From: a bacterium
Lineage (GTDB): Bacteria > Gemmatimonadota > Glassbacteria > GWA2-58-10
Assembly: GCA_021372515.1 (NCBI GenBank)
Contig: JAJFUG010000201.1
Coordinates: forward strand, 1-53,676
Direction: 5' to 3'
Length of the DNA stretch: 53,676 bases
The position numbers and the translations under genes were made by a program. The notes beneath the pieces are model-generated. The model saw only the letters and a program-made list of their open reading frames with translations. It was not told the DNA's origin and did not search any database. Shown here in pieces: positions 26,921 to 36,245 of this stretch (position 1 is its first letter; each line of letters starts with the position of its first letter).

Positions 26921-27922
26921 ATGAGCGGCGCAAACCCGGAGCGGTTGAGGATATCCTCACACAAGGTGTTTTTCGTGTCCCTGGCCGCAGTCTGCCTGGC
27001 CGTGGCCGCCTGCGGTCGCACATATCCGGATTCCAGTCCGGAGGGGTCAGTCCGGCCGGTGCAGACCGCCCTGCTGCCCTCGCGCGGCTTGCCCTCGGGC
27101 TGGTCCGCCGGCGATTCGGTCCAGGAATATGACGGCGCGGGGCTGTCCGACCTGCTGGACGGTGGGGCGGAGCTGTACCGGGAGTTCGGTTTCGTGCGCT
27201 CCCTGACCCGCGAGTACATCGGGCCGGAGGGCGCCCTGGTGATCGCCGGGGTGTACGAGATGACCGACCCGGCCGCGGCTTTCGGCCTGTTCACGGTCTC
27301 GCGGCGGGAGGATTACCAGAGGGTGGATTACGGCCTGGCCGGAGCGGAGAGCGACTATCGGCTCGTGTTCTGCAAGGGGTCTTATTTCGTGGACATGCAG
27401 TCGATGGGGCCGGGGCCGGAGAGCCAGGCCGCGGTGCGCGCCCTGGGCCGCAGCGTGGAGAGCGCGCTCCCCGGGACAACCGGGAGCCTGCCCGCGGCCC
27501 TGTCGTTGCTGCCGTCCCGGGACCGTCTACCGGACAGCGAGACCCTGGTGCGCGGGGTCCTGGGACTGAACACCTGCCATTACCTGAGCGACAGTAACCT
27601 CTACGGCCTGAGCGCCGCGCTGCCGGCGGTGCTGGCGCAGTACGTGAGCGGCGACGACCCCCGCTCGGTATGGCTGCTGGCGGTAAGCTACCCGGACCCG
27701 GCCGCCGCGTCCGGCGCGTTGGAGCGTGTGAGCGCTTTCTACAGTCAGCGCGCCGCAGCCGACCCGTCCGGACACCTGGCGCCCGAGGGCGCCGTAGCCC
27801 TGACCTACACCTCGGACCAGGGCGAGGACCGCATCCTGTTGAGCGGTGATAAGCTTTACAACCTGTTCGACGCACCGGCCGGGGCCTCGGCGGCCATGCT
27901 GAAACAATTGCTGGCGGAGTGA
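26921..27922 (+). CDS. DUF6599-like lipoprotein, copy A
   Basis: The 333-residue product has an N-terminal signal with a lipobox (AVAAC, acylated Cys at 31) and should be a lipoprotein. The body resembles the DUF6599 family: LPSGWSAGDSVQEYDG, LLDGGAELYREFGF, YIGPEGALVIAGVYEMTDPAAAFGLF and KGSYFVDMQSMG. AGGAG lies 6 bases before the ATG. It is the first gene after a candidate promoter and precedes the DUF362 gene by 105 bases. The molecular function of this family is unknown. Confidence 0.75.
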   Translation: MSGANPERLRISSHKVFFVSLAAVCLAVAACGRTYPDSSPEGSVRPVQTALLPSRGLPSGWSAGDSVQEYDGAGLSDLLDGGAELYREFGFVRSLTREYIGPEGALVIAGVYEMTDPAAAFGLFTVSRREDYQRVDYGLAGAESDYRLVFCKGSYFVDMQSMGPGPESQAAVRALGRSVESALPGTTGSLPAALSLLPSRDRLPDSETLVRGVLGLNTCHYLSDSNLYGLSAALPAVLAQYVSGDDPRSVWLLAVSYPDPAAASGALERVSAFYSQRAAADPSGHLAPEGAVALTYTSDQGEDRILLSGDKLYNLFDAPAGASAAMLKQLLAE

Positions 27923-28027
27923 TCCGCGCGGCCTTTCGGCGAAGAGAGACGGAGTTGCTTTGCTCTTTGATGAAAATGTATCAGAGCGGTTGAAGATTTC
28001 GTTTAGAGAGCGTGGAGGGAGATAAAG

Positions 28028-28987
28028 ATGGAGATCGGACGCAAGGAATTTCTGAAAGTGCTCGGGGCCGGCGCTCTGGCGGCCGGACTGGCCGGCTGCG
28101 GCGGTGGCGCGAAGACTGAAGGTGCTGGAAACGGAGCCTCTGGCGAGGCGGCCACGCAGCGTCGCCGCGAACCGGTCAAGACCGGCGGCCCGGTGCTGAG
28201 CGTAGCCACCGGGGCCGACCCCGAGGCGATCACCCGCCGGGCGATCCAGGAACTGGGCGGCATGGGCCTGTTCATCTCGCGCGGCGACAAGGTGATGATA
28301 AAGCCCAATATCGGCTGGGACCGCGTGCCCGAGCAGGCCGCCACGACCAACCCGACCGTGGTGGCCACCCTGGTGGCGCTCTGCCTGGAGGCGGGCGCGG
28401 CCAAGGTCTACGTGCTGGACAACACGATCAACGACCCGCGGCGCTGCTACGTGCGCAGCGGGATCAAGGAGGCGGCCGAGAAAGCCGGCGCCGAATGCCC
28501 GTTCGTCGAGGATTTCAATTTCAAGAAAGCCGAGGTGGGCGGTGAGCTGATCAAGCAGTGGCCGGTCTACCAGCCGGCCCTGGAGGTGGACAAGATCATC
28601 AACGCCCCCATCGCCAAGCATCACAGCCTGAGCCGTCTGACCGTGGGCATGAAGAATTTCTACGGCCTGATGGGCGGGCGGCGCAACCAGTTGCACCAGG
28701 ATGTGCACCTGAGCATCGCCGAGATGACCCGTTTCTTCGCCCCCACCCTGACCGTGGTCGACGCCGTGCGCATCCTCACCGGCAACGGCCCCTCGGGCGG
28801 GAGCCTGACCGATGTTAAGAAGACCGACACCGTGATCGCCTCGCTCGACCCGGTGGCTGCGGACAGCCGTGCGGCCGGACTGTTCGGGATCGACCCGGTC
28901 GAGATACGCTACCTGACACTGGGCCAGCAGATGGGCCTCGGCTCGATCAGCCCCGACGCCTCACTGGTCCGGGAGGTGAGCCTCTGA
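28028..28987 (+). CDS. DUF362-domain lipoprotein with Tat-like signal
   Basis: This 319-residue product starts GRKEFLKVLGAGALAAGLAGC. The region resembles a Tat signal with RK in place of RR, and the cysteine at residue 24 forms a lipobox. The rest is the DUF362 domain (PF04015), with segments such as GDKVMIKPNIGWDRVPEQ and NAPIAKHHSLSRLTVGMK. DUF362 genes often sit beside ferredoxin-type genes, as here. The stop overlaps the ATG of the polyferredoxin gene (TGATG), a sign of coupling. No enzyme activity is established for the domain. Confidence 0.83.
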   Translation: MEIGRKEFLKVLGAGALAAGLAGCGGGAKTEGAGNGASGEAATQRRREPVKTGGPVLSVATGADPEAITRRAIQELGGMGLFISRGDKVMIKPNIGWDRVPEQAATTNPTVVATLVALCLEAGAAKVYVLDNTINDPRRCYVRSGIKEAAEKAGAECPFVEDFNFKKAEVGGELIKQWPVYQPALEVDKIINAPIAKHHSLSRLTVGMKNFYGLMGGRRNQLHQDVHLSIAEMTRFFAPTLTVVDAVRILTGNGPSGGSLTDVKKTDTVIASLDPVAADSRAAGLFGIDPVEIRYLTLGQQMGLGSISPDASLVREVSL

Positions 28988-30606
28988 TGCGCACTGCACG
29001 ACGGATCAGCCAGAGCGCGTTCTTCATCCTGTTCCTTTTCCTGCTGGTCATGACCGAGTACAAGGGCGTCGACACCATCGCCTACCCGGTCAAGGTGTTT
29101 TTCGATTTCGACCCGCTGGTGGCGGCCTCCACGTTCCTGGCCCAGCACGCCGTTCCGCGCATGCTGCTCTGGAGCCTCGTGGTGGTGGGCCTCACGGTGA
29201 GCCTGGGCCGCTTTTTCTGCGGCTGGGTCTGTCCGATGGGCACGCTCAACCACATCCTGAGCCACAACAAGCGCAAGCCCAAGGACAAGATCGCCCGCAA
29301 CCGCTACGACAAGCGCCAGAGCTGGAAATACGTGGCCGTGGTCTTTTTCCTGGCCGGCTCGCTGCTGGGCCTTCAGATCGTGGGGTTCCTCGACCCGTTC
29401 TCGGTGCTCATCCGCTCGTTCGGCCTGGCGGTCAACCCGGTGTTCAACTGGCTGGTGCGCGCGGCGTTCTACCCGCTGTTCGCCCTCGACCTGCCCTGGC
29501 TCAACGCGATAATCGAGCCGGTGTTCAATTTCCTGCGCCGCTGGGTGCTCTCGTTCGAGCAGCCCTATTTCTACCAGGGGCTTTTCATCGGCCTGGTTTT
29601 CACCGGCATCGCGGTGCTCAACCAGGTGCGGCGTCGTTTCTGGTGCCGCTACCTCTGCCCGCTGGGCGCGCTGCTGGGCCTTCTGAGCCGTTTCAATTTC
29701 CTGAAGCTCCGGGTTAACAAAGAGACCTGCACCAACTGCAACCTGTGCAGCCGCAACTGCGAGGGCGCCTGCGAGCCGCAGTCGAGCGAAAGCTGGCTGC
29801 GCACCGAGTGCCTCTACTGCTGGAACTGCATCGAGTCCTGCCCCAGCCATTCGCTCTCGTTCGGCTTCGGTCTGCCCGGCAAGGCCGAGCGTGGCGTGGA
29901 TTACGGCAAGCGCCACGTGGTGGCCGCAATGGGCGCGGCGGTGGGAGCGGTGGCCCTGGCCCGGATCGACCCGCGTAAGATGCCGCCGTTCGCCTCGGGC
30001 GAGGATGTCAAGGAGTCGAAGAAATTCAACCCCGCGCTCATCCGTCCGCCCGGAGCGGTGGACGAGTCCGAGTTCCTGCACCGCTGCATCAAGTGCGGCG
30101 AGTGCATGAAAGTCTGCATCAAGAACGCGATCCAGCCCACCCTGATGGAGGCCGGGCTGGAGGGGTTCTGGACGCCCTACCTGAAAATGCAGCAGGGCTA
30201 CTGCGAGTACAATTGCACGCTCTGCGGCCAGGTCTGCCCGACCCAGGCGATCCGGAAACTGACCGTGGAGCAGAAACACCAGACCAAGATCGGGCTGGCG
30301 TTCTTCGACAGGAACCGCTGCATCCCGTACAGCCAGGGGCACAATTGTATAGTTTGCGAGGAGGTCTGCCCCACGCCCAAGAAAGCGATCTGGTTCGAGG
30401 AGGTCGAGGTGCTCGACAGCTCGGGCCAGAACAAGATCAAGGTCAAGCAGCCGCATATCGACCCGCACCTGTGCGTGGGCTGCGGCATGTGCGAGAATGT
30501 CTGTCCGTTGGTGGACAAGCCCGGCGTCTACGTGACCGCCATCGGCGAGAGCCGCTCGCCCAACAACCAGATGCTGCTGGATGTCTACGGCTCGGGATTG
30601 ACCTGA
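28987..30606 (+). CDS. Membrane polyferredoxin, NapH-NapG-like fusion
   Basis: The 539-residue product has four or five membrane helices in its first half with the NapH-type motifs CGWVCPMG (about residues 78-85) and CRYLCPLG (about 220-227). [4Fe-4S] cysteine sets follow at about 248-261, 278-286, 367-377, near 405-415, near 450-460 and 496-507. A second hydrophobic stretch after residue 310 (GKRHVVAAMGAAVGAVALA) looks like a degenerate NapG-type signal. It probably moves electrons from the quinone pool or a carrier to extracytoplasmic or cytoplasmic partners. The fusion is my inference. Confidence 0.82.
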   Translation: MRTARRISQSAFFILFLFLLVMTEYKGVDTIAYPVKVFFDFDPLVAASTFLAQHAVPRMLLWSLVVVGLTVSLGRFFCGWVCPMGTLNHILSHNKRKPKDKIARNRYDKRQSWKYVAVVFFLAGSLLGLQIVGFLDPFSVLIRSFGLAVNPVFNWLVRAAFYPLFALDLPWLNAIIEPVFNFLRRWVLSFEQPYFYQGLFIGLVFTGIAVLNQVRRRFWCRYLCPLGALLGLLSRFNFLKLRVNKETCTNCNLCSRNCEGACEPQSSESWLRTECLYCWNCIESCPSHSLSFGFGLPGKAERGVDYGKRHVVAAMGAAVGAVALARIDPRKMPPFASGEDVKESKKFNPALIRPPGAVDESEFLHRCIKCGECMKVCIKNAIQPTLMEAGLEGFWTPYLKMQQGYCEYNCTLCGQVCPTQAIRKLTVEQKHQTKIGLAFFDRNRCIPYSQGHNCIVCEEVCPTPKKAIWFEEVEVLDSSGQNKIKVKQPHIDPHLCVGCGMCENVCPLVDKPGVYVTAIGESRSPNNQMLLDVYGSGLT

Positions 30607-30640
30607 GACGGGGCGGGTGTTAAAATCATTGGGTAACGCG

Positions 30641-30674
30641 AAGCGGGGGCGGAAGATACTTTTTGCCCCCGCTT
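30641..30674 (+). terminator. Hairpin after the polyferredoxin gene
   Basis: AAGCGGGGGC (30641-30650) pairs perfectly with GCCCCCGCTT (30665-30674) around a 14-base loop. Only GCTTTCC follows, so it is a weak or partial terminator. It separates the redox genes from the GWxTD genes. Confidence 0.45.
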
Positions 30675-30795
30675 GCTTTCCACTGCCGCTGTCCCGGACC
30701 CGCCGGCCGCGTTCGGCCCGTCCGGGACAGGGTGTGTCCGGCCGGGCTTTGTGCTGCCCGGCGTTGAGCCTGTCGTTCGACCGGACCCTGCGCCG

Positions 30796-33060
30796 ATGCG
30801 TACTCTGCTGAAATGCGTTGTTGTCCTGGGCCTGTGCGCCGCTGCCCCAGTCCGCGCCGCTGCTGCTGTCACCACGCCGGACAGCCTGCCCGCTCCTGCG
30901 GCGGTGGTGCAGCGCGACAGCCTGGCGGTGAAGCTCAATTCCTTTCTGCGGCTGGGTTTCAGCCGCCTGGAGCAGGATGACCAGCAACTGGCGCGCCAGG
31001 CGTTCGACCGGGCGCTCGAGCTGGCCCCGGGCGATGCGAAGGCCTGGATCGGGGTGGGGCGCTGCTACCTGGAGCGCGAGGACAAGCGGGCGCGCCTGAT
31101 CCGGATCGTGGAGCGCTGGTTCAACATGGACGATGTCTCGCGGGCCATCGACTGTTTCGGCAAGGCCGTGGAGCTGGCCCCGGGCAGCGCCGAGACCCAT
31201 TACTGGCTGGGCTCGGCCTACATGCGGCGCTACGGGCGCGCTGACCTGGAAACCGCCCTGGTCCAGCTCCAGACAGCCTCCGACCTGGGTGGCATGAACC
31301 GCGACCTGGGGCTCAAGCTGGCCTCCCTGAACAAGGCCCTGGGCAACCTCGACTCCGCCGAGCGGGTGCTCTCCGAGGTGATCGAGAGCGAGAAGGGCCG
31401 TCTCGACCCGCTGGCCGGCCTGGAGCTGGCCAAGATCAGCCTGCGGCGCCACAACTACGACAAGGCGATCCGTCTCTACTGGCGCGGGGTGCAGGCGATC
31501 ACCACCCGGGCCGAGTTCAAGGCCTACTGGGACGATGTGGTGATGCTGGCGGATGAGGACGAGCGCGAGCAGTTCGACCAGACCGCTCCCACCCAGGCCG
31601 AGCAGTTCTTCCGCGATTTCTGGTTCCGCCGCGACCACGACCTCGACCTGTCGCCCGGCATGCGCCTGCTGCGCCACTACTACCGCCTGGCCGTGGCCGA
31701 CAGCCTGTACCACGTTCCGTTCGCCCAGCGCAATCCCTCGCTCGGCCCCCTGGCCGCCACCTACCCGGAGGTGGATGTGCCCTACGATGACCGTGGCCTG
31801 GTCTACATCCGCCACGGCCGACCGGACCGCACCTTGACCCAGATCGGCGATGGCTTCCTGCCCAACGAGACCTGGATCTACTACCGTCATGACGCTCCCG
31901 ACCTGATGCTGCATTTCGCCGGGCTGAACGGCAACACGGAATACCAGCTCGTCACCGCCCTGTCCTCGGTGGTGGGGCGGCCGAGCGATTTCATCGCCGA
32001 CATCGACGGGAATGTCTACCCGCGGGATGACGAGGAGGCCACCCGCCTGAACTGGGTCCGCGAGCTGTACGCCTCGCGCGAGGAGGTGGGCGACGGGCTG
32101 TATTTCCGCCTGCTCAACCATCCCGGCGACCCGTTCGCCCTGATGGAGGAGGAGGCGACCAACGCCCTGGCCATCCGCCGCGCCCTGAACAGCGAGAGCG
32201 TGGAGGCGCCCTACTCGCATCCGCTGCGCTCCTTCTACGACCTGGTCGGTTTCCGCGGCCTCTCGGGCAAGCAGGGCGACCTGGAGTTCTACCTGGGCGT
32301 GCCGGGACAGGATATCAGCTTCTCGCGCCAGCGGGACGCCTACTACTACGACATCGCTTTCGAGCTGATGCTCTACGACAGCCGCTGGCGCCAGGTGGGG
32401 CGGATCGAGAAAGCCGAGCAGCACCGGAGCGCGATCAACCCCCACGACCTGGTGGACCGGCTGGTGCTCGACCTGGGCCGCCTCGACATTCCGGCCGGGG
32501 ATTACCGCTATTTCATCAGGATACAGAACGGCGAGTCGGTGGGGCTGTTCAACGGCGAGCTTCGGATGGACTCGTTCGACGGGGATTCGCTGCAGTCGAG
32601 CCAGATACTGACCGCGCAGAATATCTTTGCCTCGCCGGTCGATTCGAGTAAATTCAAGCGGTACGGCCTGGAAATATATCCGAACCCCTCCCGGGTGTTT
32701 CACCCGACAGACAAGATGTTCGCCTACCAGGAGATATACAACCTGACCCCGGCGGCGGACGGCAGTTGCCGCTACCGGATCACCTACGTGGTCAGCACGC
32801 TCAGGCGCGACCGCAACGTGTTCGGGGCTGTGCTCGACACTTTCAAGTCCCTGGCCGGCCGTGGCCCGGGGCAGGAAAAGGTGGTCCTGTCGGCCGAGAA
32901 GACCCGCCGTCCGTCGGGACAGGACCTGGTGCAGGAGGAAGTGGCGATCGACATCTCGGACAATCCGGATGGACTGTACGAGCTGTCGGTGCGGGTGGAG
33001 GACCTGAACCTGGCTGGACGGATGACCCAGCGCAACACCCGTTTCGTGGTCAAGCGCTGA
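30796..33060 (+). CDS. Secreted TPR-GWxTD domain protein
   Basis: The 754-residue product has a signal peptide (MRTLLKCVVVLGLCAAAPVRA). TPR-like repeats follow (ARQAFDRALELAPGDAKAWI, DCFGKAVELAPGSAETHYWL). The GWxTD-type domain appears as FWFRRDHDLDLSP and YDDRGLVYIRHGRPD (about residues 330-345), with GW replaced by VPY. The C-terminal third is beta-rich. GWxTD domains have no known biochemical role. The ORF frame also opens earlier at 30673, but ATG 30796 gives the signal peptide. Confidence 0.78.
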   Translation: MRTLLKCVVVLGLCAAAPVRAAAAVTTPDSLPAPAAVVQRDSLAVKLNSFLRLGFSRLEQDDQQLARQAFDRALELAPGDAKAWIGVGRCYLEREDKRARLIRIVERWFNMDDVSRAIDCFGKAVELAPGSAETHYWLGSAYMRRYGRADLETALVQLQTASDLGGMNRDLGLKLASLNKALGNLDSAERVLSEVIESEKGRLDPLAGLELAKISLRRHNYDKAIRLYWRGVQAITTRAEFKAYWDDVVMLADEDEREQFDQTAPTQAEQFFRDFWFRRDHDLDLSPGMRLLRHYYRLAVADSLYHVPFAQRNPSLGPLAATYPEVDVPYDDRGLVYIRHGRPDRTLTQIGDGFLPNETWIYYRHDAPDLMLHFAGLNGNTEYQLVTALSSVVGRPSDFIADIDGNVYPRDDEEATRLNWVRELYASREEVGDGLYFRLLNHPGDPFALMEEEATNALAIRRALNSESVEAPYSHPLRSFYDLVGFRGLSGKQGDLEFYLGVPGQDISFSRQRDAYYYDIAFELMLYDSRWRQVGRIEKAEQHRSAINPHDLVDRLVLDLGRLDIPAGDYRYFIRIQNGESVGLFNGELRMDSFDGDSLQSSQILTAQNIFASPVDSSKFKRYGLEIYPNPSRVFHPTDKMFAYQEIYNLTPAADGSCRYRITYVVSTLRRDRNVFGAVLDTFKSLAGRGPGQEKVVLSAEKTRRPSGQDLVQEEVAIDISDNPDGLYELSVRVEDLNLAGRMTQRNTRFVVKR

Positions 33061-33182
33061 GCCGGCCCGCGGCCGACATTCTCCGGCGTTTTTGGCCCGA
33101 ACGCGCCGCACGTTCCAGTGTATTATCCCTTAGTGAACTGGCCGAGTCTTGTTGCGCCGACTTTCCGCGTGCGGAGAATAAT

Positions 33183-34463
33183 ATGTCCCAAGGATCGAGA
33201 ACAAGCCTGCTGTTGATGATCATTCTGGCCGTCCTGGGCCTGGGCCGCGCCGCCGCCCAGGAGGTCAATCCTTTCGAGAACGACGTGCCGTTCAGCCTGC
33301 GGATGGCGTTTTTCCGCGGTCCGGCCGACAGCACCCGCTGCCTGATCACCGTGGCTGTGGAGAACCAGAACCTGCTGTTTTTCCGCCAGAAAGACCATTT
33401 CGAAGCCGCCTACGAGGCGTTCCTGAGCATGCGCGACACCGAGTCGGGCCACATGCTCCGCGGCTTGTGGGACAAGGACCTGCGGGTGCCCAGCTACGAT
33501 GAGACCACCCTGGAGGCTAATTTCGACCCCCTGCAGACCGAGATGAACGTGTTGCCCGGCAAGTACGAGGGCTTTGCCGAGGTGAAGGATCTGAACGCCC
33601 ACACCTACGGCAACGGACGGGTCTCGGTCAATGTCCCGAACCTGTCGGAAAAGCTGCCCAAACTGAGCACGCCGTTCTTTTACGAGCCCGGGATGCGGGC
33701 CGATTCGGTGGTCGATTCGCACCTGGAAATCTCGACCCTGCGGGGCGCTTCCTTGCAATATGCCTCGGGCCAGCCTATATTCCTGCTGGTCGAGGTTTAT
33801 GCCGATTCCACCCGCCCGCCCGAGGGCTGGAAACTGACCGCCGAGGTGGTCAAGGCCCTGATGGTCTTCCCGCGGGTGGAGGTGTCCCTGGCCGATGGCG
33901 AGCTGACCCAGCGCAAGCTGATCCGCCTGCCCTCGCAGACCCTCGGCCTGGGCAGCTACGAAGTGGATGTCTACCTGCGGGACGCCAAAAACCAGTCGCT
34001 GGCTCGCGCCACCAGTTTCACGTTCCGCATAGTCAAATCGGCGAGTTGGGTCAGCGAGAACTATTCGCAGGAGATACGCTACCTCAAGTACCTGGCCAGC
34101 GAGACCGAGCTCAAGGAGCTGATGGCCGTGCCCGAGGCCCAGCGACAGGCCGCGCTGGATGCGTTCTGGCAGAAGATGGACCCCGTGCCGGCCACGGCGG
34201 TCAACGAGCTGAAAGTCCAGTATTTCGAGCGGATCGATTACGCCAACCGTCATTTCAGCACCGATCAGCGCGAGGGCTGGGAGACCAACATGGGCGAGGT
34301 CTATATCCTGCTCGGCCCGCCCACCGAGATCTACGGCAGCCGCCTGAACCAGATCTGGGTCTACGAGGTGGAGAACCTGGTGCTCTATTTCTTCAATCAG
34401 AACCTGCGCAACCGAGAGGAATTCGACCGTTATGTCCGCGAGCGCCGCTGGTGGAGCAACTGA
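33183..34463 (+). CDS. Secreted GWxTD domain protein
   Basis: This 426-residue product begins with a signal peptide (LLLMIILAVLGLGRAAA). A long beta-rich region is followed by a canonical GWxTD block, REGWETNMGEVYILLGPPTE (about residues 363-382), and the YEVENLVLYFF end typical of such proteins. It follows the TPR-GWxTD gene by 122 bases on the same strand. The pair may act together. ATG 33183 has GGAG at good spacing; the earlier in-frame opening at 32766 lies within the upstream gene. Confidence 0.8.
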   Translation: MSQGSRTSLLLMIILAVLGLGRAAAQEVNPFENDVPFSLRMAFFRGPADSTRCLITVAVENQNLLFFRQKDHFEAAYEAFLSMRDTESGHMLRGLWDKDLRVPSYDETTLEANFDPLQTEMNVLPGKYEGFAEVKDLNAHTYGNGRVSVNVPNLSEKLPKLSTPFFYEPGMRADSVVDSHLEISTLRGASLQYASGQPIFLLVEVYADSTRPPEGWKLTAEVVKALMVFPRVEVSLADGELTQRKLIRLPSQTLGLGSYEVDVYLRDAKNQSLARATSFTFRIVKSASWVSENYSQEIRYLKYLASETELKELMAVPEAQRQAALDAFWQKMDPVPATAVNELKVQYFERIDYANRHFSTDQREGWETNMGEVYILLGPPTEIYGSRLNQIWVYEVENLVLYFFNQNLRNREEFDRYVRERRWWSN

Positions 34464-34517
34464 GCGACATCGACAGGATAATCATTCGGCCACTCATTAT
34501 CATGGAGCGATCAGACA

Positions 34518-35492
34518 ATGATTCATTCACGTCCGGGACGCTATCTGGTTTTCGGGCTTTTGCTTGCCGCCGCGGCTCTGTTCGCCGCCGGTTGCGGCGG
34601 GGCGAAGGAAAATAAGGAAGAGGCCCCGGCCGCCGCGGGTGCTGCCGGCTCGGGTGCGGCGCTGGCGGTGCTGCCGGCTGACGGGGCGGCGGAGGGCTGG
34701 ACCCGCAGCGGCGAGCCCCGCGTGTTCAACGCCGACAGCCTCTGGGTGTACATCGACGGTGGAGCGGAGGGATATTTAATCTATAATTTCCAGGAGGTCG
34801 CCACCGCCGACTACCAGGGCCCGGACGGCCTGCAGGCCGTGGTGGATGTCTACCGCATGGCGAATGAACTGTGCGGCTTCGGCATCTACTCCTCCGAGCG
34901 CCCCTACGAGGCCCAGTACAACCAGATCGGCTGCCAGGGCTATTTCACCCGCAACGCCCTCAATTTCTGGCAGGGACCCTACTACGTGAAAGTCACCTCG
35001 TTCAAGGAGGGCAACGAGGTGGAGCCGGCCCTGCGCAAGCTGGCCGAGGCCGCCCGGGCCGCCATTCCGGCCAAGGCCGAGATTCCGCCCGAGCTGGATG
35101 TGTTCCCGGCCGACAACCTGATCCCCAACACCGTGCGCTACCTGGCCCGCGATGTCCTGGGACAGAGCGACCTGAAAAACGGGTTCACAGCCGAGTACAA
35201 GGACGGCGACACCGAGTACAAGCTGTTTTTCATTCTGCACGAAACGGTCGAGGAAGCCCAGAAGAGCTACGAGTCGTACAAGACCTTCATGACCAAGTAC
35301 GCCAAGGACCTGGAGGACCACAGCGACGAGGAAGTGCCGTGGTTCTCGGCCAAGGACCCCTACTACGAGAAAGTGCTGGTCATGCAGGCCGGCAAGACCA
35401 TGCTCGGCGCGCTGGGTCTTCAGGATGCCGAGCGGGTGAACGACTATCTGGGGCGCATGCAGCAGAAGCTGGCGGCTCTGGGACGGATCTGA
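34518..35492 (+). CDS. DUF6599-like lipoprotein, copy B
   Basis: The 324-residue product has a lipoprotein signal (LLLAAAALFAAGC, Cys 26). Its core matches copy A at 26921: EGWTRSGEPRVFNADSLWVY, IDGGAEGYLIYNFQE, YQGPDGLQAVVDVYRM, CGFGIYSSERPYE and FWQGPYYVKVTSF. The two proteins are clear paralogues, but diverged. This copy lies after the GWxTD pair and 12 bases before a membrane-protein gene, which suggests one transcript. Its role is unknown. Confidence 0.78.
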   Translation: MIHSRPGRYLVFGLLLAAAALFAAGCGGAKENKEEAPAAAGAAGSGAALAVLPADGAAEGWTRSGEPRVFNADSLWVYIDGGAEGYLIYNFQEVATADYQGPDGLQAVVDVYRMANELCGFGIYSSERPYEAQYNQIGCQGYFTRNALNFWQGPYYVKVTSFKEGNEVEPALRKLAEAARAAIPAKAEIPPELDVFPADNLIPNTVRYLARDVLGQSDLKNGFTAEYKDGDTEYKLFFILHETVEEAQKSYESYKTFMTKYAKDLEDHSDEEVPWFSAKDPYYEKVLVMQAGKTMLGALGLQDAERVNDYLGRMQQKLAALGRI

Positions 35493-35504
35493 CCGGGAGC
35501 CAGG

Positions 35505-36245
35505 ATGGAAGAAGAGTATCTGGCCAAGTACGCACCGCAGCCCGAAAAACCGGTCCGTAAACGGCGGTCGTTTTTCGGTGACAGCCCCACCGTACGCTAT
35601 GGCCTGATTGTCGTGAGCATGACGATGCTTTTCCTGCATTTTTATAAGTCCATGTACGAGGGAAAGCACCTGCGCGGCCCGATCGACGATTTCTTCAGGA
35701 AAAAATATTCCAACATGACTGTCCTGTACCCCTCCGGGGGCGAGCGGGCCGCGGACAGCCTGGTGGAGGCTTACGCCCGCAAGGTGGCCGCGGGCCTGGA
35801 GAAGAAGTTCTCGACCCGAATCCCGGTCCAGGCCGACCGTGAGGCCAACGACCGCACGCGCAAGCGCAAATCCCTGCTGCTCTACGGTCCGGTGGAGGAC
35901 AACCGCCTGTTGCGCCACATCCAGGATGACCTGCCGATCCGTTTCCGCGACGGCCGGGTCTGCCGGGGTGACGGGTCAGTGATCGACCGCAGCGACTGGC
36001 GGTTGGTGTTTGTCGCTCCCAACCCCTACAACAACACCCAGTACGTGCTGGTCTACACCGCAGCCTCGCCCGAGTTGCTCGTGGGGATAAACTACGTGGG
36101 CAACCCGAATTACGTGCCCCACGACTCCACGGACTACGTTCTCGCGGCTGGCGACAGTGTCCTGGCCTCCGGCTTTTTCGACAAGGACAGCACCCGCGGC
36201 GCCTGGAGCCTTCCCCACGACGCCCTGGCCACGGTCGGGCGCTGA
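35505..36245 (+). CDS. Single-pass membrane protein, hydrolase-like tail
   Basis: The 246-residue product has a basic N-terminus, one membrane helix (about residues 32-48) and about 195 residues predicted to lie in the periplasm. LLLYGPVEDN, LPIRFRDG and VAPNPYNNTQYVLVYTA resemble, by memory, a C-terminal domain that follows secreted alpha/beta hydrolase-type peptidases and reads like LP-x-W then PNPLNPxRYVV. No catalytic triad is visible. It follows copy B of the DUF6599-like gene closely. I cannot name its function. Confidence 0.6.
   Translation: MEEEYLAKYAPQPEKPVRKRRSFFGDSPTVRYGLIVVSMTMLFLHFYKSMYEGKHLRGPIDDFFRKKYSNMTVLYPSGGERAADSLVEAYARKVAAGLEKKFSTRIPVQADREANDRTRKRKSLLLYGPVEDNRLLRHIQDDLPIRFRDGRVCRGDGSVIDRSDWRLVFVAPNPYNNTQYVLVYTAASPELLVGINYVGNPNYVPHDSTDYVLAAGDSVLASGFFDKDSTRGAWSLPHDALATVGR

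Follow-up and report, generated by a model that had tools for sequence, protein, structure and literature searches.

Genes A, B and C of the window (the whole stretch of DNA analysed here, 53,676 nucleotides) appear to form one instance of an envelope redox module that recurs across many phyla of bacteria, a reading supported by comparison of gene neighbourhoods. B, a DUF362 protein, resembles in its predicted structure lactate racemase (LarA), an enzyme with a nickel cofactor, of which it would be an exported relative, and C is a polyferredoxin whose sequence places it in a known kind. We consider it very probable that B and C form an extracytoplasmic redox pair, and about an even bet that B is an exported hydride-transfer enzyme that depends on the nickel-pincer nucleotide (NPN) and is wired to the membrane by C.

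Genes of the cluster

The original prediction placed seven genes on one strand at 26921-36245 and read them as a single redox-linked envelope system. A check of the open reading frames found all seven on the + strand, flanked in the window by a nucleotide-sugar epimerase upstream and a peptide-type ABC transporter downstream.

A, 26921..27922, + strand: DUF6599 lipoprotein, lipobox VAAC (PF20244, 105.7 bits)
B, 28028..28987, + strand: DUF362 protein, Tat-like (RK) signal with lipobox, LarA-like predicted fold (PF04015, 169.9 bits)
C, 28987..30606, + strand: polytopic polyferredoxin, NapH-NapG fusion, seven predicted [4Fe-4S] clusters (matches to NapH and NapG models)
Promoter-like site before D, 30598..30626, + strand: TTGACC-17-TAAAAT with extended -10 (consensus scan, weak)
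Strong hairpin between C and D, 30641..30674, + strand: possible terminator (folding energy)
D, 30796..33060, + strand: TPR and GWxTD protein with signal peptide (Pfam, NCBIfam)
E, 33183..34463, + strand: GWxTD protein with signal peptide (PF20094, 74.8 bits)
F, 34518..35492, + strand: second DUF6599 lipoprotein, lipobox AAGC (PF20244, 158.4 bits)
G, 35505..36245, + strand: single-pass membrane protein, an orphan of the window's family (relatives in its own family only)

The starts of D and E are corrected ones and are the most likely. A and F, which had been proposed as two lipoproteins of one family, both pass the curated Pfam cut-off for DUF6599 (27 bits), though at 25% identity they are distant paralogues; their lipoboxes were recognised by eye, and the AlphaFold model of F has a pLDDT of 89. 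B passes the DUF362 cut-off (24 bits), and its match to the NCBIfam model Npun_F2552 is far under the cut-off (79 against 500 bits). The expected iron-sulfur membrane protein is C, which carries Fer4_5 and several 4Fe-4S domains in Pfam and whose start shares one base with the stop of B. As for the two GWxTD proteins, E is over both the Pfam (26.9 bits) and NCBIfam cut-offs; D consists mainly of TPR, and its GWxTD match is over the NCBIfam cut-off (34.9 against 28 bits) but under that of Pfam (15.1 bits). G gave no match in Pfam or NCBIfam.

The DUF362-polyferredoxin pair

A scan of genome contigs yielded 80 loci with C, from Nitrospirae, Zixibacteriota, Desulfobulbaceae, Acidobacteria, Aminicenantes, Bacteroidetes and others, and 78 of these had room to see an upstream DUF362 gene. 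The DUF362 gene lies directly 5' of the polyferredoxin gene in 70 of the 78, across many phyla and frequently with the same one-base overlap as in the window. In the remaining eight it is 1.8-2.3 kb upstream (two loci), downstream (two), hidden by an overlap in ORF calling (one) or not visible (three). Cluster 'c2' of the neighbourhood comparison proved to be an ORF on the strand opposite DUF362 that greedy ORF selection had called in error, and was discarded.

C has 28 Cys, each of them conserved in 81-83 of 83 sequences including that of the window, which is enough for seven [4Fe-4S] clusters. A twin-arginine-type motif stands before its last membrane span, as RR in 74 of the 83 sequences and as KR in nine, the window's among them. 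C thus belongs, on sequence, to the seven-cluster polytopic polyferredoxins (PFD), NapH-NapG fusions of the Q1NSB0 type with three clusters on the inner side and four on the outer (Tooke et al. 2017 eLife, PMC5449189). Insertion of a PFD, shown for the MLMS-1 protein, needs Sec and Tat together (PMC5449189).

DUF6599 and exported redox proteins

We examined 60 places with DUF6599 and counted partners within 1.5 kb, divergent members being confirmed by Pfam. DUF362, a Tat-type Fe-S aldo-keto reductase or a polyferredoxin/NapH protein is nearby in 44 of them, and DUF362 in 33; with about five DUF362 genes per genome, we estimate chance adjacency to DUF6599 at roughly one percent. At some of these places a divergent exported DUF362 protein stands beside DUF6599 without C. 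The second recurrent partner is the Tat-type aldo-keto reductase with C-terminal 4Fe-4S motifs, which adjoins DUF6599 in 12 of the 60 places (for example L168:5113-6309 and L054:6800-7948). F is an exception, having neither B nor C within 1.5 kb.

Starting from C, 13 loci beyond the window's family have DUF6599 at a distance of up to 5 kb, and 32 of the 50 genomes with C encode it. In a phylum sample of 150 Gemmatimonadota genomes, the six genomes with full-length C are also the six with DUF6599, and they form a single clade. A fold search with DUF6599 gave no convincing match in the PDB (best TP0453, TM 0.25-0.31).

Resemblance of B to lactate racemase

B had been called a Tat-type DUF362 lipoprotein. 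The family assignment and a lipobox (LAGC) stand, but the signal, GRKEFLK, is an RK variant. Among its 53 aligned relatives 51 have RR at the same place and 47 of the 53 sequences of the family have RRxF; the lipobox is unusual, with something similar in six of 53. No Cys is invariant in the 53 sequences. A Tat-type signal on a protein with no invariant Cys suggests a cofactor that is probably not Fe-S.

The AlphaFold model of B (pLDDT 90.5) was compared with the PDB by Foldseek, and all 19 matches at E<=0.001 are of the LarA family, with TM of about 0.4-0.5; a sequence search of the PDB with B found no match. DUF362 and the DUF2088 of LarA are placed in one Pfam clan, CL0471 (PMC11770544). 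A narrow profile of B aligns to LarA weakly, over just 38 columns (P 0.02), so that a wider DUF362 profile was needed; this aligns over 136 columns with P 1.5e-4, against 0.06-0.4 for five decoys. H199 of B then falls on the position of LarA His174 and K209 on that of LarA's Lys. H199, K209 and H223 are invariant in all 53 sequences of the B family, with spacing of 10 and 14 residues where the LarA counterparts have 10 and 15-16. H223 lies outside the aligned stretch, and its match to the nickel ligand of LarA is by spacing alone (14 against 15-16). In LarA the Lys (unnumbered in the source) carries the cofactor, a His completes the nickel site and His108 and His174 are the catalytic pair (PMC12611868).

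The likeness has its limits. The His at the His108 position (H114 in the numbering of L202) is invariant in LarA (11/11), and the corresponding region of B has no conserved His; nor does B have a counterpart of LarA's C-terminal domain. A K-x-H ... K-N pattern is kept in other DUF362 proteins encoded by this genome.

Association with NPN biosynthesis genes

Genes for NPN biosynthesis (lar) are linked to B-C in L054, L055, L058, L109, G003 and G007. In L058, an acidobacterium, larE, larC, larB, a polyferredoxin, DUF6599 and two DUF362 genes form a contiguous run on one strand. A stretch of 12 kb in L054, of the Syntrophaceae, contains larC, larB and larE together with a Tat-type Fe-S aldo-keto reductase, DUF6599, B and C; the genome gave no match to LarA. 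L055 and L109 have larE sequence near B-C, and in G178 larC stands beside another DUF6599. Among 78 loci outside the window's family, four lar-linked ones were seen (from three lineages) against 0.35-1.05 expected by chance, giving P of about 0.0005-0.02 when four loci are counted and 0.006-0.09 when three are.

Occurrence across genomes gives a more mixed picture. LarC is present in 40 of 46 genomes with B-C, and 19 of those 40 are without LarA. Two single-chromosome Zixibacteria records have B-C and no LarC match, but do match LarA. Most genomes carry larC well away from B-C, and the neighbours of larC in 40 stretches are mostly unrelated to DUF362. In the phylum sample LarC was found in 73 of the 150 genomes and LarA in 10, with no association between DUF362 and LarC (p 0.29). 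DUF362 is likewise missing from most genomes that have LarC without LarA, and we have dropped it as a general account of LarC without LarA in the phylum, which has no support from co-occurrence; another NPN user or another role of LarC is likely in those genomes. Taken as a whole, the linkage and the residues support NPN, and the phylogenetic profile does not discriminate; co-occurrence over the phylum lends the NPN step no support.

Two further observations concern LarA itself. Two acidobacterial LarA homologues (L211:237-1619 and L221:205-1614) begin with Tat-like signals, NRRQFLGQA and TRRDFLEQA, which hints at possible export of NPN proteins. G171, G172, G176 and G197 have LarA matches without a LarC match, possibly reflecting a divergent route of nickel insertion.

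Proposed mechanism and alternatives

In the mechanism that we propose, B would fold before it is exported through the Tat pathway and would work as an oxidoreductase whose active site is of the LarA type. Its K209 would tether NPN, H223 would bind the nickel and H199 would serve as acid/base, and the NPN would be loaded in the cytoplasm, before export. Loading there of a cofactor that is not Fe-S would explain why B takes the Tat route, and NPN fits this. The reaction of LarA is a hidden hydride transfer, and a version of it without one of the acid/base His residues, connected to seven iron-sulfur clusters, could carry out net oxidation or reduction. C would pass electrons between the quinone pool or the cytoplasm and B through its three inner and four outer [4Fe-4S] clusters, and A may be a lipoprotein accessory of such redox modules. 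The gene pairing, the family of C and the predicted fold and invariant residues of B come directly from the analysis; what we infer covers the binding of NPN, the direction of the electrons, the substrate and the role of DUF6599.

The use of NPN by B is, in our judgement, a roughly balanced question. B and C could instead be an extracytoplasmic redox pair without NPN. The LarA-like fold would then accommodate a different cofactor, or a substrate that is reduced or oxidised by C, and linkage to lar would be a coincidence; we give this somewhat less than an even chance. This reading would agree with the missing association of DUF362 and LarC in the phylum, with larC lying mostly elsewhere in the genome, with the modest linkage statistics and with the lack in B of the His108 equivalent and of the C-terminal domain; it is harder to reconcile with three invariant residues at a spacing near that of LarA, with the contiguous run in L058 and with the full lar set beside B-C in L054, a genome without LarA. 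B might also be no enzyme at all but help C to mature or assemble, for example in acquiring its clusters or inserting into the membrane. The nearly constant adjacency and frequent overlap of the two genes would suit an assembly factor and its client, but B has its own Tat-type signal and invariant polar residues resembling an active site, and divergent exported DUF362 proteins stand beside DUF6599 in places without C; we regard this as improbable.

One system or two units

The redox-linked envelope process of the original prediction is supported for A, B and C, by the DUF362-polyferredoxin pairing across phyla and by DUF6599 beside redox genes. That all seven genes are one envelope system, with D to G as lineage-specific partners, seems to us very unlikely. 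Although the genes keep a common strand and order in the window's family (six genomes in the sample, in two of which they are split over contigs), most of the window is just as syntenic. In G001, G003 and G005 the block is kept, as are most window genes within reach of the fetched contigs, and because most of the window is equally conserved in sister genomes, local gene order is no evidence for a seven-part system. A precedes B in five of the six genomes and is missing before B in G005. At the C loci of other phyla, nothing that strongly matches D, E or G accompanies C; these genes were seen beside it in the window's own family only. Furthermore, larE is inserted between C and D in G003 and lies just 3' of C in G007.

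The gap between C and D also suggests a boundary. Its hairpin in the window is real (-28.1 kcal/mol, z -5.5), with no U-run after the stem; terminator-like hairpins with U-runs occur in this gap in G005, G001 (weak) and G009. The original prediction had named, as findings that would leave a single system without support, families that are not neighbours in other genomes and transcripts that end at this hairpin; as far as sequence allows, the former was found for D, E and G and the latter is suggested by the hairpins. We have set the seven-gene system aside as unproven, and it is better to regard A-B-C as one unit and D-G as another; D, E, F and G would adjoin the redox module in this bacterial family. 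A second perfect inverted repeat with 11-base arms (CTGTCCCGGAC) lies just upstream of D, at window positions 30689-30730. Promoter-like sites in the scanned region numbered 3, against 1.7 expected.

Meaning and comparison with known systems

About 15% of surveyed genomes are reported to have larB, larE and larC without larA, so that further NPN proteins are expected (PMC11796402). The B-type DUF362 proteins may be such a family, though the full proposal, in which they are exported NPN enzymes that do net redox chemistry with electrons passing through the seven-cluster polyferredoxin, is a tentative one. If true, they would be NPN enzymes outside the racemases and epimerases, and would be some of the NPN users in genomes with larB/C/E but no larA. 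They are in any case a concrete and directly testable candidate, with a predicted tethering Lys, an export route and an electron partner. In the literature that we searched we found no papers on DUF6599 or GWxTD, on DUF362 with a polyferredoxin or on Npun_F2552, and no described function for DUF362 or DUF6599; both families now gain a working context.

B is a member of the DUF362 family (PF04015, 170 bits). C resembles the described PFD in its NapH-NapG fusion, its seven predicted [4Fe-4S] clusters and a Tat-like motif before the last span, and differs from it in having KR in place of RR in the window; the PFD paper (PMC5449189) does not mention a DUF362 partner. Compared with the NapGH quinol dehydrogenase, C matches the NapH and then the NapG models in domain order and cluster motifs, but it is one fused chain, scores far under the NapG and NapH equivalog cut-offs and has DUF362 rather than nitrate reductase as its partner. 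The LarA-family enzymes described in the literature we found are racemases or epimerases. B shares with the LarA superfamily the predicted fold, the His and Lys positions on which H199 and K209 align and the Pfam clan CL0471, and differs from it in being exported, in doing without the His108 equivalent and the C-terminal domain, and in its pairing with an Fe-S protein.
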